The notes under the pieces were generated by a model. The model was given only the letters and a program-made list of their open reading frames with translations, did not search any database and was not told the origin of the DNA. A DNA stretch of 64,000 nt. Origin: Synechocystis sp. PCC 7338. GTDB taxonomy: Bacteria > Cyanobacteriota > Cyanobacteriia > Cyanobacteriales > Microcystaceae. Positions 58,629 to 63,766 of this stretch are shown one piece after another. Each line of letters begins with the position of its first letter. Positions within the stretch are counted from its first letter, which is position 1. The stretch covers positions 1,225,488-1,289,487 of the forward strand of contig NZ_CP054306.1 in the NCBI RefSeq assembly GCF_018282115.1. The letters run 5' to 3'. Position numbers and translations under genes: made by a program.

Positions 58629-59843
58629 ATGCGGCAGTCCTTTTCCCGATCTTCCCAATCCAGTCCTAGTCAGACCTGGCCCTACTGGTATCTGGTGCCC
58701 ATTTATCCCTACAGCCAAAGGCAAACTTTGTTGCGGGAAGTGGTGCCGGACACCATTTGGGTTTTGGAGCAAGTGCAGGGAATTTTTTATGTGGTAGTAC
58801 CCATCCGCATGACGGTGGTGCGCTTAAATACGGGGGGACTGCTAATTTACGCCCCCATCGCTCCCACGGAAGAATGTTTGCAATTGTTGGGGCAACTAAC
58901 GGCCAAGTATGGCCCAGTTAAATATATTATCCTACCCACCATTTCTGGGTTAGAACATAAGGCCAATGTACCGTCCCTAGCCCGCCATTGTCCAGAAGCA
59001 ACGGTGTATGTGGCCCCAGGACAGTGGAGTTTTCCCCTTAATTTGCCCCTCACTTGGTTAGGATTTCCAGGCGATCGGACTAAAATCTTGCCCGCTGACA
59101 GTAGCGAAACTCCCTTTGCGGGGGAATTTGATTACGCTTACCTCGGGCCGTTGGATTTACGCCTGGGCAAATTTGGCGAGGTGGCTTTTTTCCATTGGTC
59201 TAGTCATACTTTGCTGGTGACGGATACCCTGTTGGTTTTGTCGGAAAATCCCCCCTCAGTGTTGGAACTAGACCCCACCCCCCTAATGTTCCATGCCAGG
59301 GATAAAGCTGGCGATCGCCTGGAAGATAATCTCGCTAATCGGGCTAAAGGATGGCAACGCATTTGTTTATTTGCCCTCTATTTCCAAGCCAGCACCCTAG
59401 AAGTCCCCAATTGGAACCAGGTGTGGCAAGAAGCGAAACAAGTTGGCGCACCGCATAGCGGATCTCTGCGAGATCGCCGTCGGGAAAATTATTTTGGTTT
59501 GTACCCATTTCGGTGGCGGAAAGATTGGCAAAACACTTTTCAAACCCTGTGGGGCGGCGGCAAAGTCCGAGTAGCCCCCATTTTGCAAGAGCTAATTCTC
59601 AACCGCGAACCGGAAGCTGTATGGCAATGGGTAGAAAAAATTACTAGCTGGCCCGTGGAAACCCTCATTCCCTGCCACTTTTCAGCGCCAGTGGCTACCA
59701 ATGGAGAACAAGTCCGCCAAGCGTTTAGCTTTTTGCAAAAATCTCCCCCGGAGGAGGCAATCTTGCCTCAAGAAGATCGGCAAATCCTGCAACGCATTGA
59801 CCAATTCCTGGTACGTTGGCGCATTACCCCACCCTCAAGTTGA
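58629..59843 (+). CDS. DUF4336 family protein (metallo-hydrolase-like)
   Basis: The protein has 404 residues and belongs to DUF4336, a cyanobacterial/plastid family with a metallo-beta-lactamase-like fold. Motifs include YVVVPIRMTVVRLNTGGLLI, IILPTISGLEHKANVPSLA, the VAPGQWSFPLNLP strand and LLVTDTLLVLSENPP. The usual HxHxDH motif is changed here (SGLEHKA), so metal hydrolysis is uncertain. ATG 58629 is chosen over GTG 58623. It may be cotranscribed with psb28. Confidence 0.85.
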   Translation: MRQSFSRSSQSSPSQTWPYWYLVPIYPYSQRQTLLREVVPDTIWVLEQVQGIFYVVVPIRMTVVRLNTGGLLIYAPIAPTEECLQLLGQLTAKYGPVKYIILPTISGLEHKANVPSLARHCPEATVYVAPGQWSFPLNLPLTWLGFPGDRTKILPADSSETPFAGEFDYAYLGPLDLRLGKFGEVAFFHWSSHTLLVTDTLLVLSENPPSVLELDPTPLMFHARDKAGDRLEDNLANRAKGWQRICLFALYFQASTLEVPNWNQVWQEAKQVGAPHSGSLRDRRRENYFGLYPFRWRKDWQNTFQTLWGGGKVRVAPILQELILNREPEAVWQWVEKITSWPVETLIPCHFSAPVATNGEQVRQAFSFLQKSPPEEAILPQEDRQILQRIDQFLVRWRITPPSS

Positions 59844-59938
59844 TCAATAAATATAAGCCGATCAATATAAATAGAAATAACAGTTAGAATTTAAAAAATT
59901 AATTAACATAAGTAATACATTTTATAAGAACGAATCAA

Positions 59939-61024
59939 ATGAGTACTGTTGAATATAAAAAGACGTTTTTTAAAATCGCGGATTTTGTGTCTTGGCAAAA
60001 AGAAAAAACATTAGTGCTGTCTCCTAAATTTCAAAGAAGATCTGTTTGGAGTTCAGGTGCAAAATCTTACTTAATAGACACTATCGTAAGAAATCTTCCC
60101 ATTCCTATTATTTTTTTAAGAGATCTTCCCGTAGATTTAGATACATTAAAAGCAGTCCGTGAAGTTGTTGATGGACAACAAAGACTGAGAACTGTTTTGA
60201 GTTTTGTGGTACCAAGTTTGTTGGATGATTATAATCCTAAAAATGATGATTTTACGGTGCAAAAAAATCATAACCCAGAAATAGCAGGGAAATCATTTCA
60301 AAACCTTGACAATGAAATCAAACAGACTATTCTGGATTATGAATTTAGTGTCCATATTTTGTCACCACGAATGGATGATAGAGAAGTAATTGAAATATTT
60401 CGCAGAATGAACTCTATTTACTATAAGCTTAATGACCAAGAATTAAGAAATTCTCAGTATTTTGGTGATTTTAAAACACTTGCGTATAATTTAGCCACAG
60501 AATCTCTCGATTATTGGAGGAGATGGAATGTATATGATGACGATGACATTGCTCGAATGAAAGAGGTTAAGTTAACTTCTGAGATTATAATTATGATGAT
60601 TACCAAGGATTTAGAATCTAGCAGTAAATCAAAAATTGATAATTTTTATAAGAAATACGATTCAGTGTTGCCCCAAAAAGGGGAAATATATAATAATTTT
60701 CATTTAACAATGAGGATAATTAATGATGGTTTTAAGGATTTTTTACCTTCATCAATATTTTCTCAGCAAACTAAAATATATGTTTTTTTTGCCTTAATTT
60801 ATCATCTTGTTTTTGGATTAAATGACTATCCTAAAATTACTCGCTCATGTCGGCAACTTTCTCAAGACAATGTGCAAAAAATAAAGAAGGTATGCAATGA
60901 GCTACAGCACAATAAAAATGAAATTGAAATTGATTCCAAAGTTATTAAAGCAGTAAATTCCCGAAGACAATCAATTACTGAGAGAACGGTAATTTTTGAA
61001 TATTTAATTAATAAAATTATTTAA
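59939..61024 (+). CDS. DUF262 (ParB/GmrSD-like) protein
   Basis: The protein has 361 residues. The N-terminal ParB/Srx-like fold shows KFQRRSVWS (~30-38), YLIDTIVRNLPIPIIFLRD and the diagnostic DGQQR at 78-82, the motif used by GmrSD-type defence proteins for nucleotide binding or hydrolysis. A helical C-terminal region follows; the C-terminal HNH of full GmrSD-type proteins is absent. The gene is AT-rich and HIP1-free, unlike its left neighbour. The HEPN gene starts 42 bases after it, so the two look like one unit. Confidence 0.85.
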   Translation: MSTVEYKKTFFKIADFVSWQKEKTLVLSPKFQRRSVWSSGAKSYLIDTIVRNLPIPIIFLRDLPVDLDTLKAVREVVDGQQRLRTVLSFVVPSLLDDYNPKNDDFTVQKNHNPEIAGKSFQNLDNEIKQTILDYEFSVHILSPRMDDREVIEIFRRMNSIYYKLNDQELRNSQYFGDFKTLAYNLATESLDYWRRWNVYDDDDIARMKEVKLTSEIIIMMITKDLESSSKSKIDNFYKKYDSVLPQKGEIYNNFHLTMRIINDGFKDFLPSSIFSQQTKIYVFFALIYHLVFGLNDYPKITRSCRQLSQDNVQKIKKVCNELQHNKNEIEIDSKVIKAVNSRRQSITERTVIFEYLINKII

Positions 61025-61066
61025 TTCAAAGCAAGGCTAATTTTGTAAATGTATTTTTAGATTTCT

Positions 61067-61684
61067 ATGCCTCGAAAAGCGAATAAATTATTAGATGATT
61101 TTAAGCAAAAAGTGAGGTCAAAAGAGCTTGTTCGTTGTAAAATGGAAGAGTTGTTAGTTTCTCAAAATATCAAAGAAACTGATATTTTGTTTATTTACGA
61201 TGGATTATTCTTGAATTTATTTACAGATTTTGAGAAATTTATTGAAGACTTATTCTTTGGGCTAATTAAAGGAAGTATTTATATTGAAGGTAAAAGTATT
61301 AGTAGTATTCGTAAAGTTAAAATTTCTCCCCAAGAAGAGATAGAATTAGTTGTTTTAAGTGGAAAAGACTATCTTGATTGGCTACCGTATGATCATACAA
61401 AAAAAAGAGCAGAGATTTTTTTAAATGATGGATACCCCTTTACTAAATTAAATGAAAATCAAATACGTGTAATGGGAGAATATCATAAAATTAGAAATGC
61501 AATTGCCCACAAAAGTCTTAAAGCTCAAAAGCAATTTATGAAAATCATACAAAATCGACCTTTGTTACCTACAGAGAAAAATCCATCGGGATATTTAAGA
61601 AGTAAAGGGAGTGGAGAGATGACGCAATATGAAATCGCAGCCAGGGAATTAGTCAAAATTGCAAACGACCTATGCAAAGTGTAA
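61067..61684 (+). CDS. HEPN-domain protein paired with DUF262
   Basis: The protein has 205 residues and is mostly helical. YHKIRNAIAHKSLKA contains the HEPN ribonuclease signature Rx4-6H (R143 and H148, RNAIAH). The preceding segment FLNLFTDFEKFIEDLFFGLI is typical of the MAE_28990-like HEPN proteins. HEPN proteins with this motif are RNases in toxin-antitoxin and phage-defence systems. The gene follows the DUF262 gene in the same AT-rich island. Family assignment is by motif and pattern only. Confidence 0.78.
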   Translation: MPRKANKLLDDFKQKVRSKELVRCKMEELLVSQNIKETDILFIYDGLFLNLFTDFEKFIEDLFFGLIKGSIYIEGKSISSIRKVKISPQEEIELVVLSGKDYLDWLPYDHTKKRAEIFLNDGYPFTKLNENQIRVMGEYHKIRNAIAHKSLKAQKQFMKIIQNRPLLPTEKNPSGYLRSKGSGEMTQYEIAARELVKIANDLCKV

Positions 61685-61912
61685 CGCAAGTCCTTTAGAG
61701 TAACAAAATGATAAGATGTACAACTTATGGGAAAAATTAATTAAAAAGACTGAGAATAAACATCCGTCAGGGCTTAGAATACCAAGACAATTGCGTAGGC
61801 TGGTTTACCATGGCAATCTTATAGATAATTCTTCCTAAGACTTTTCGTGGTGATTCTCCAGATCCTTAATTAGAGTGCGAATTGCCCAAGTCATAGCCTT
61901 GGCTGAGTCTTC

Positions 61913-63766
61913 TTAGAAATAGAGACTAAAAAAAATATTTTTCCCCATCATTTCTTGATTAAACTGAGCCGGAGTGCCAGAAAAAACAATCCTTCCAGCT
62001 TCTAGCAAAATGATGGTATCAGCCTGCTCTATGACCGATGGACGATGGGAAACCACCAAACAAGTGGGGGTATAAACCGCAGAATGACGTTGGTGAATAT
62101 TACTAAATAGACGTTGCCATAGTTTTTGTTCAGTTTCTAGATCCAGGGCGCTAGAAAGATCATCAAATACCATTAATTCCGGTTGACGAACGAGCATCCT
62201 GGCCGCGGCGACCCGTTGTTTCTGGCCACCGGAAAGGCGAACCCCCCTAGTGCCCAATTGGGTATCAAGGCCCCTGGGCATCAGAGCCAAATCTTGCTCA
62301 AAAACAGCGGTGGCGATCGCCTGGTTTAATTGCTCTGATGAAACATCATCGGCCAGTCCCAACAACAAATTTTCCCGCAGAGAAGTGCTGAATAATTGGG
62401 GAATTTGGGGAGTGTAGGCGGCCCGGGGCGGAATTAAAAAAGTCGCTGGCTCTGCAATTTCCGAACCATTCCAAAGAATTCTGCCTGATTGTTTGGGCAG
62501 TAAACCTAGTAGGGTACGAATTAACGTAGTCTTACCCGTGCCTACCCGTCCGGTAATTACCGTCAAACTGCCCCGTTGTAAGCTAAAGCTGATATCAGCA
62601 ATGCCATTGTCACTGCTTGGATAATGGTAAACCAATCCTTCTACCCTTAGTTCTTGTAAAGGATCAGTTTTGACTGCGACTGAGAGGGGAGGTAAGGCCG
62701 GTTGGGAGCCCAAAATGGGTTTGAGATAGAGAGGATGGGCATAGGTGAGGGGAAAGGAGGCGGGATTAACTGTGCTAGGAGAAGGGCATTCACCACCGTT
62801 GATTAAAACTGCCATGCGCTCAAAGGAGACTTCACTTTGTTTCACAGAAGCAAGAAAACTCCCAAAAAATGCCAAAAAATCACTAACAAAAGCGAGATAA
62901 TAGACAAATAGGGCAAAATCTCCCACAGTGAAGTTACCCTGGGGACCAAGACTTTGGGCCCCTAAAAGTAAAATTAGTCCGGTACCAATGCTGACAGTAT
63001 TTTCAAAGCCGGAATTGAGGATGGCATTAAAAACCTGGTCCCGCACCATTAAACGACGACGGCGATCGCCTCTTTTTCTTAATTCCTCCAACATTTCAGT
63101 TTCGGCCCTGGCCACCTTAATGGACTGCACAGCGGTAAACATTTCCCCTATGAATCCGGTCACCTGTTGGGTTCCATGGCGACTGGCCCGACGATACCGT
63201 TTCAGGCGATGCTCAGCTTGGTGGGCCAGGGCGGTGATTAGGCATAGGGGTACAAAAACCAATAAGGTCATTTCCCTGTTAACGCTCAACAGTAGGGCCA
63301 CGGAAACCACCGCAAACACCCCAGCGGCAAGGATTTCATTCGTGCCCACCACTGTGTCTTCAATTTGTAGAGCATCATCGCGAAAATAGCTCAGCATTTC
63401 CCCAGGGGAAACTTTCTGGCCGTCCACTGCTCCGCTGGCTAGTTCTGCCCCAGGGCGATGCAATAATCCCTGGAACAGGTTGTGGCGCACCAATCCACTC
63501 ATCAAAAAGCGGTGTTGGGTTTTTGTGATCCGCCCAGTAAAAATTGCCGCCATTCTGCCTAGTCCCACCGCTAAAAATAGGCCAATCCAGACCCAGGGAG
63601 ATTCCTTAATTTGGGTTTGGCTGGTTAAGGTGTCGAAAAACTGACGAATTAGCAGTCCCGGTACTATGGGTATTCCCAGAATAAATAGCCACAATATAGT
63701 ATCCAACCAATAAAGTTTCTGGGCATAGCGGATCATCTGCCAAAGCAGTTGATAGATAGGTGGCAT
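61913..63766 (-). CDS. ABC exporter, fused membrane and ATPase domains
   Basis: The protein has 617 residues. Five to six membrane helices (to ~320) are followed by an ATPase domain (~370-610) with Walker A GRVGTGKTT, Q loop, signature LSGGQKQRVAAARML, Walker B LMVFDDLSSALD and the switch His in VVSHRP. The residue after the Walker B Asp is Asp rather than the usual catalytic Glu. It is a half-transporter of the exporter type; the substrate is unknown. The 230-base gap before its stop codon, toward the HEPN gene, holds no supported gene. Confidence 0.9.
   Translation of the reverse strand: MPPIYQLLWQMIRYAQKLYWLDTILWLFILGIPIVPGLLIRQFFDTLTSQTQIKESPWVWIGLFLAVGLGRMAAIFTGRITKTQHRFLMSGLVRHNLFQGLLHRPGAELASGAVDGQKVSPGEMLSYFRDDALQIEDTVVGTNEILAAGVFAVVSVALLLSVNREMTLLVFVPLCLITALAHQAEHRLKRYRRASRHGTQQVTGFIGEMFTAVQSIKVARAETEMLEELRKRGDRRRRLMVRDQVFNAILNSGFENTVSIGTGLILLLGAQSLGPQGNFTVGDFALFVYYLAFVSDFLAFFGSFLASVKQSEVSFERMAVLINGGECPSPSTVNPASFPLTYAHPLYLKPILGSQPALPPLSVAVKTDPLQELRVEGLVYHYPSSDNGIADISFSLQRGSLTVITGRVGTGKTTLIRTLLGLLPKQSGRILWNGSEIAEPATFLIPPRAAYTPQIPQLFSTSLRENLLLGLADDVSSEQLNQAIATAVFEQDLALMPRGLDTQLGTRGVRLSGGQKQRVAAARMLVRQPELMVFDDLSSALDLETEQKLWQRLFSNIHQRHSAVYTPTCLVVSHRPSVIEQADTIILLEAGRIVFSGTPAQFNQEMMGKNIFFSLYF

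Follow-up and report, generated by a model that had tools for sequence, protein, structure and literature searches.

Two adjacent genes of the cyanobacterium Synechocystis sp. PCC 7338, one encoding a DUF262 protein and the other a predicted HEPN ribonuclease, form a real, co-inherited and conserved unit, described here from a stretch of 64,000 nucleotides (contig NZ_CP054306.1, positions 1,225,488 to 1,289,487 of the forward strand) that is called the window throughout. The pair has the same design as the PD-T4-2 system, but it belongs to a separate lineage and its HEPN family is unrecognised by the libraries searched. The reading favoured here, and considered moderately probable, is that of a sensor (the DUF262 NTPase) and an effector (the HEPN ribonuclease, RNase) in phage defence, acting through growth arrest or abortive infection. 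The features concerned are as follows, with coordinates counted from the first letter of the window.

59939-61024, plus strand: DUF262 gene, 361 amino acids (aa)
60170-60184, plus strand: DGQQR motif, residues 78-82 of the DUF262 protein, invariant in 52 sequences (window included)
61025-61066, plus strand: intergenic gap of 42 bases between the two co-directional genes
61067-61684, plus strand: HEPN gene, 205 aa, predicted ribonuclease
61493-61510, plus strand: RNAIAH, residues 143-148 of the HEPN protein, with R143 and H148 as the R-x4-H HEPN motif
59844-61912, no strand: AT-rich accessory stretch from the DUF4336 gene to the ABC transporter gene

The original prediction, made from the letters of the window, had placed the two genes on one strand, 42 bases apart, with DGQQR and no HNH nuclease in the first and RNAIAH in the second; the coordinates are exact and both motifs were recovered at the residues listed above. 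The two genes are probably co-transcribed, the gap between them being in relatives mostly a few bases or an overlap, against 42 bases here.

The first protein matches Pfam GmrSD_N (PF03235) over residues 20-175 with an E value of 1.5e-21 and 77.9 bits, against a cut-off of 33.2, and this is its sole Pfam family at E<=10. At the same threshold no DUF1524 or HNH family was detected in it or in the HEPN gene product, in agreement with the predicted lack of HNH in the first gene, and a GmrSD type IV restriction enzyme was rejected as the identity of the pair; a scan of the DUF262 protein for nuclease motifs returned one chance-like HNKN only. With GmrSD, BrxU, SspE and DndI the pair has in common a ParB/Srx-fold DUF262 domain with DGQQR, whereas the window has a separate HEPN protein in place of a detectable HNH/DUF1524 domain. 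The best PADLOC match of the DUF262 protein is NsnA (124.5 bits), and PD-T4-2_A is matched at 84 bits (E 2.6e-24). Across 52 DUF262 proteins, that of the window included, all five DGQQR residues (D78-R82) are invariant, as are Q32, R33, W37, P54, P56, L123, F154, R156, N158, E168 and R206. An AlphaFold2 model with a mean predicted local distance difference test (pLDDT) of 93.0 displays a ParB/Srx-like NTPase-type domain at about residues 6-163 and a helical C-terminal half. With this model, Foldseek returned BrxU (E 7e-5), then SspE and ParB, and a second structural aligner gave SspE at Z 8.8 (3.4 Å over 152 residues), ParB-family proteins at Z 7.9 and below and a DndI-system chain at 6.3, the matches lying mostly in residues 1-163. 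BrxU reached Z 9.0 over the whole chain with a root-mean-square deviation of 17.9, implying domains that are shifted relative to BrxU. As modelled, the DUF262 fold is confirmed. For the C-terminal half, no HNH match could be recognised among the rows of the structural search apart from a weak one to the C-terminal part of SspE (Z 4.2), which speaks neither for nor against such a domain. Four further DUF262 domains were observed in the same genome (C1:1821478, 1918153, 1680851 and 2920063), in frames of 554-761 aa that are perhaps GmrSD-like.

The second protein reaches the cut-off of no model in Pfam, PADLOC or NCBIfam (best PADLOC E 0.013), the NCBIfam matches of both proteins lying far below cut-off. 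A sub-threshold Pfam HEPN match covers the motif region (pEK499_p136, 17.8 bits against a cut-off of 26.6). PF18735 (HEPN_RiboL-PSP) is not listed by Pfam for the window HEPN and matches weakly five of the 59 HEPNs of the set (best E 9.7e-6), and the MAE_28990 family PF18737 does not match the window HEPN and matches one of the 59; PF18737 found no match in the genome of origin, nor did the controls, so that this last search is uninformative alone. Searches with the HEPN protein gave no match in PHROGs, nor in genome contigs, plasmids and phages. In the 59 HEPN sequences (window included), which go down to about 10% identity with that of the window, invariance is confined to R143 and H148, these rows having been chosen by profile score and one of them (L051) by the motif itself; the conservation of both residues across the family, whose lack would have counted against the original prediction, is thus complete in the set. 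In the AlphaFold2 model (mean pLDDT 96.6), the second aligner placed a HEPN toxin first (Z 9.6, 4.7 Å over 135 residues), and seven of its top nine rows are titled HEPN toxin or HEPN-MNT complex (Z 9.6-8.8, 122-137 residues); the remaining two, HI0074 and YutE, we take to be HEPN-like. HEPN-MNT toxins have in common with the window HEPN the R-x4-H motif and probably the fold, but the partner here is a DUF262 protein instead of a nucleotidyltransferase, and membership in HEPN-MNT toxin-antitoxin systems was rejected for want of an MNT partner, the partner matching PF03235 only. These results also bear on the possibility that the effector is the DUF262 protein, acting on DNA as a modification-dependent nickase or nuclease with a ParB fold, and with the HEPN protein as an accessory (nucleotide binding, assembly) or a second effector. 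The term 'ParB nuclease' of the older literature (PMC3710099) and a helical C-terminal half without known role would agree with it, but Pfam finds no nuclease domain, the motif scan only the chance-like HNKN, and R-x4-H is the sole invariant feature of the HEPN, which favours catalysis there; we hold this possibility to be improbable.

Pairing was followed from the HEPN gene as well as from the DUF262 gene. The HEPN was found in 7 of 148 genomes of relatives (own included), with a DUF262 gene directly upstream in all six others, although one HEPN (L004), close to the end of a contig, is incomplete. Among 386 genomes sampled from the phylum, a profile search gave four with the HEPN, one of them new and paired too, so that DUF262 lies directly upstream in each of the eight cyanobacterial genomes in which this HEPN was found. 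In the DUF262-first search, whose set in named genomes is the best 80 of at least 124 confirmed loci, 37 of the top 40 loci have an R-x4-H open reading frame (ORF) immediately downstream, that of L051 recognised as HEPN by the motif alone, and three lie at a contig end, two of which show by eye the beginning of a HEPN-like frame. Since the query was built from HEPN-paired proteins only, this set leans to the present clade and the tree count given below is fairer. Among DUF262 loci of IMG/VR, 11 of the 13 top-listed have the HEPN, so that viral contigs also carry the pair, and two are cut at a contig end; the HEPN is missing from all 12 loci that follow. In one of the 11 (L106) the DUF262 ORF is shortened and the gap measures 207 bases. 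A HEPN-first search of 395 Bacteroidota genomes gave nine matches, of which the five strongest (E ~1e-38 or better) are all paired, one of these (G876) having contributed a row to the search model. Over 49 pairs the distance matrices of the two families correlate with r 0.89 (0.69 for distant pairs only), the maximum of 2,000 permutations being 0.25, which argues that the two genes travel together. Two distantly related HEPN genes (L157:1339-2085 and L158:1486-2208) were observed without DUF262 nearby, one of them adjoining by eye a Dam-like methylase ORF.

In a 132-row DUF262 tree, from which seven duplicate loci and all loci with a DUF262 under 40 bits were left out, one branch with a Shimodaira-Hasegawa-like approximate likelihood ratio (SH-aLRT) support of 96 holds 61 rows, 57 HEPN-paired and four at contig ends; the label 'HEPN' stands for a profile match in the locus, the profile deriving largely from the same loci, and adjacency was read separately. 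This clade covers ten phyla (Cyanobacteriota, Zixiibacteriota, Planctomycetota, Acidobacteriota, Actinomycetota, Pseudomonadota, Verrucomicrobiota, Bacteroidota, Bacillota and Chloroflexota), several of them represented by metagenome-assembled contigs only. One archaeal metagenome-assembled genome inside the clade, nested among Bacteroidota, is likely a transfer or a contamination. In a second tree, a hand-picked subset of 68 rows, the HEPN-paired clade has a support of 100/98, and the PD-T4-2, Menshen and RiboL-PSP-HEPN pairs lie across a 100/100 branch from it. As judged from these trees, the window clade is distinct and separate from the PD-T4-2 lineage. A single clade for all HEPN-paired DUF262s of the 68-row tree was rejected by the approximately unbiased test (p-AU ~1e-101), therefore DUF262 came to be paired with HEPN on more than one occasion, which is most naturally read as a sensor whose output can be exchanged. 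One clade of the core with a four-row RNFLGH group was not rejected (p-AU 0.085).

Further partners were observed in these trees. The sister of the clade in the 68-row tree (95/93) consists of three DUF262s paired with serine/threonine (Ser/Thr) kinases, the kinase gene standing directly after DUF262 (L014:3492-5736, L015:3471-5613 and L073:2974-4856); their sources are Pseudanabaena and Asticcacaulis plasmids (by Pfam) and the Schaedlerella chromosome (by eye), and they are possibly a second two-gene module. L019, a further member of this sister clade, has a transposase gene downstream. Six loci (L094, L097, L100, L118, L120 and L121), placed across the tree from the window pair, combine DUF262 with a PF18735 HEPN, one also with PF18737, the first three being the loci with a HEPN of known Pfam family among the next 40 of the DUF262-first set. 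The label 'RiboL' was set by hand, by Pfam for these six, by the record's note for L136, by motif only for L091 and by a weak PD-T4-2_B match for L141; hhalign gave no match of window-type HEPNs to the RiboL-PSP set. A third DUF262-HEPN group (L048, L049, L053 and L056) comes from four phyla on its own 100/100 branch, with HEPNs of 226-230 aa and the motifs RNFLGH, RNYLAH or RNYLSH, the HEPN of L049 being cut by a contig end.

The original prediction knew of no characterised system with this composition, a claim that falls, as PD-T4-2 consists of DUF262 and HEPN (PMC9519451, PMC10952713). Experiments have validated PD-T4-2 as an E. coli defence against T4, both in its native setting and after transfer to K-12 (PMC9519451), and it is classed in a review under both DUF262 and HEPN PF18735 (PMC10952713). 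Its DUF262 and HEPN genes are adjacent and in the same order (homologue L140 and the same review, PMC10952713), and the N-terminal domains of the DUF262 proteins align at 26% over 183 aa. The pair might for this reason be taken for a diverged PD-T4-2 and a member of that named system, in keeping with the lengths of the two proteins (361 aa in the window against 373 aa in L140 for DUF262, 205 against 168 aa for HEPN), the match of the window DUF262 to PD-T4-2_A at 2.6e-24 and the match of two of the 59 HEPNs to the PD-T4-2_B model (best E 0.0067). On the other hand, the window HEPN has no match to PD-T4-2_B at E<=10, hhalign of a window-type HEPN with a PD-T4-2_B homologue aligned 22 columns round the motif at 15% probability, and beyond the motif region no relation of the two HEPNs is detectable. 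The DUF262s stand opposite each other across the 100/100 branch, and a joint clade of PD-T4-2 with the core was rejected (p-AU 0.005), PD-T4-2 being in this tree a single sequence on a long branch. Membership in PD-T4-2 is hence regarded as quite improbable. The PD-T4-2_B model found no match in 7, 394 and 13 genomes searched; one of the 395 Bacteroidota genomes has a homologue (E 8e-51), which overlaps a DUF262 gene and adjoins, by eye, an apparent type I restriction gene.

Other systems are less close. Menshen likewise has a stand-alone DUF262 protein, NsnA, the best PADLOC match of the window DUF262 protein, but a Pantoea NsnA scores 371 bits against 124.5 for the window protein and is adjoined by a DUF3696 gene, which we infer to be the Menshen partner; membership was rejected by score and by the lack of a partner gene of ATPase/OLD type, the outer neighbours of the pair being a DUF4336 gene and an ABC transporter. 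In the predicted system ptuXYZ (PMC11980606) too, a protein with DUF262 only shares its operon with a ribonuclease, which differs in being a YoeB-related RNase of BECR fold (RelE/YoeB-type) accompanied by an ATPase gene, not a HEPN. In a 2013 survey, MAE_28990 and RiboL-PSP HEPN genes were described in operons with ParB genes (PMC3710099); these pairs too set a HEPN gene beside a ParB/DUF262 gene, but the window HEPN matches neither model and their DUF262s are in the other half of the tree.

The pair was found on mobile elements. Four of the first ten plasmid or phage DUF262 loci fetched carry it, on replicons of Rhizobium, Rhodococcus and Glutamicibacter and in Escherichia phage vB_EcoM-689R6. 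The phage version is present at an identity of at least 99.9% in 9 of 5,426 complete E. coli genomes, by a search for near-identical copies that would miss diverged ones; eight of the nine are annotated as a DUF262 protein plus a hypothetical protein and one as DUF262 alone. In both E. coli genomes inspected among the nine, the pair lies between intE and icd, as in the phage record, in what looks like an e14-type prophage. The K-12 intE-icd interval holds ymfD, ymfE and lit, an annotated cell death peptidase, and Lit excludes T4. This interval of e14-type prophages (L149, L150 and L151) was observed as an apparent slot for swappable cargo. Among 119 neighbour ORFs of 36 loci (two of 121 having been dropped as the pair itself), PADLOC matches include type I/IIG restriction enzymes, type II methyltransferases, reverse transcriptases, E1-E2/JAB and others, 25 of 95 families being shown, and GmrSD genes have been reported in neighbourhoods enriched in restriction-modification genes (PMC4619093).

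Regarding mechanism, the pair would be a stand-alone, horizontally moving anti-phage (anti-mobile-element) module in which the DUF262 protein acts as sensor and switch, its DGQQR pocket binding and hydrolysing nucleoside triphosphate (NTP) upon a phage-specific signal. The trigger would most likely be modified or unusually structured DNA, in the manner of BrxU and SspE. In SspE, DGQQR is essential for GTP hydrolysis, through which the recognition of DNA is linked to the licensing of the nuclease (PMC13251355). In the window pair the switch would not license an HNH DNase but release or activate the separate HEPN protein, a dimer of which would cut RNA through R143 and H148, so that the infected cell is arrested or killed before phage release. 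We infer NTP hydrolysis, the trigger, the protein-protein contact, the RNA substrate and the abortive outcome alike. By analogy, it is plausible that the DUF262 protein senses for, or restrains, the HEPN RNase; Tha, a prophage HEPN RNase with R-x4-H, is triggered by a phage tail protein and is abortive, stopping the cell (PMC11087260).

The main rival to this reading is a toxin-antitoxin system, with the HEPN as a constitutively active RNase toxin and the DUF262 protein, encoded by the first gene, as its antitoxin; the pair would then persist by addiction, and phage defence would at most be a by-product of antitoxin loss in infection. A small mobile two-gene operon with the regulator first has such an appearance, the best structural matches of the HEPN are toxins of HEPN-MNT pairs, and the DUF262 without HEPN annotated in one of the nine E. 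coli copies is expected if the HEPN is costly; a small gene pair in a congener slot, described below, is another point in its favour as far as we presume it to be of toxin-antitoxin type. However, a protein of 350-360 aa with an invariant catalytic-type nucleotide motif would be an unusual antitoxin, other DUF262 genes adjoin other partners (kinase, DUF3696), and the DUF262 relatives in SspE and BrxU are phage-DNA sensors (PMC10952713). A toxin-antitoxin role is accordingly rated as unlikely, though it is the alternative to be taken most seriously.

Several observations weigh against the sensor-and-effector reading. Just one of the next 40 DUF262 loci (L074) has this type of HEPN, and six of the ten plasmid or phage DUF262 loci are without it, two having a kinase gene and four no recognised HEPN partner. 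The original prediction had asked whether homologues occur as adjacent pairs in defence islands: the adjacency holds in 8 of 8 cyanobacterial genomes and 37 of the top 40 DUF262 loci, the exception being four of the nine Bacteroidota HEPNs, the weakest (1e-21 and above), which differ in size and have no DUF262 in the 3.2-3.7 kb neighbourhoods examined (roughly 1.5 kb each side), while the island context is thin and only suggestive, the neighbour census having no control set. The correlated trees are equally expected from simple linkage. Foldseek gives the HEPN model only weak matches (best E 1.4), headed by a HEPN toxin, and with the second aligner a designed helical protein, the first unrelated row, reaches Z 8.6 against 9.6 for the best HEPN toxin, a difference within what helical proteins attain by chance; a HEPN fold is therefore compatible with the model, a supportive but not decisive result. 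Because the fold match is near chance, the HEPN call relies mainly on the motif and on weak Pfam matches of some relatives. No experiment on this clade was found in the literature searched, supplementary files and subscription papers being outside its scope.

The GC content is 29.8% over the module and 47.5% over the window (block standard deviation 4.5%), and 5 of 1,246 blocks of equal length across the window are as low, all five overlapping the module locus, hence the AT-richness is beyond chance and the locus is, as predicted, AT-rich and the lowest stretch of the window. Of the HIP1-free gap, its existence is upheld and its significance is not: the window has 54 HIP1 sites (GCGATCGC), and the gap of 3,002 bp (59311-62313) is the third longest of 53 inter-site gaps, with a chance of P ~0.08 for a gap of at least this length at the site density of the window, so that the missing HIP1 is not beyond chance. 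As a sign of foreign origin the gap was rejected, two others being longer. The flanking genes are ordinary chromosomal ones, in agreement with the prediction, with a DUF4336 gene adjoining psb28 on the left and an ABC transporter gene on the opposite strand on the right. A promoter scan gave seven sites, fewer than in shuffled sequence (mean 10.0); short repeats at the locus are chance-like, so that neither terminal repeats nor another mark of insertion could be made out, and Rfam and tRNA searches gave no match.

The DUF4336 gene is present in all four congeners, and the pair is absent from this place in all of them. The homology on this side fades within the gene in two congeners, ending at 59414 and 59695, and in the two others it reaches 59833/59834, stopping 9-10 bases short of the gene's end, with different genes next, from which the slot after the DUF4336 gene is considered variable. 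DNA of the ABC transporter was matched in one of five genomes searched, far from the DUF4336 gene of that genome, and the locus is for this reason also a rearrangement point. In the only congener with the pair (G001), the pair and the DUF4336 gene are on separate contigs. In a close congener (G004, L143:896-1455), the DUF4336 gene is followed by two small genes, which we take to be a toxin-antitoxin pair, and then by an ORF that we presume to be Uma2-like; in another (G003, L144:2817-4181) the same slot has an unrelated ORF resembling, by eye, a secreted carbohydrate-binding protein. An AT-rich pair missing at this place in four congeners could also consist of housekeeping or decaying genes without a defence role, but here both motifs and both frames are undamaged, and ten phyla have retained the two genes as a pair, which leaves this explanation very improbable.

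On a wider view, which is tentative and leans to the doubtful side, DUF262 would be a general plug-in phage sensor whose outputs have been exchanged repeatedly, and the present clade the unnamed RNA-cutting counterpart of type IV restriction in at least ten bacterial phyla, responding to modified or foreign DNA by the destruction of RNA. The exchanged outputs would, as part of this same tentative view, comprise an HNH DNase, a DUF3696 ATPase, a Ser/Thr kinase and, independently, several HEPN RNase families. If the sensor-and-effector reading is true, it adds a widespread defence family that is now annotated, as in E. coli, as a DUF262 protein plus a hypothetical protein. It would also make testable whether DUF262/ParB-fold NTPases can stand in for one another as sensors and drive DNases, RNases or kinases, and for the E. 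coli version in the prophage interval beside icd, a test in K-12 would require two genes only.

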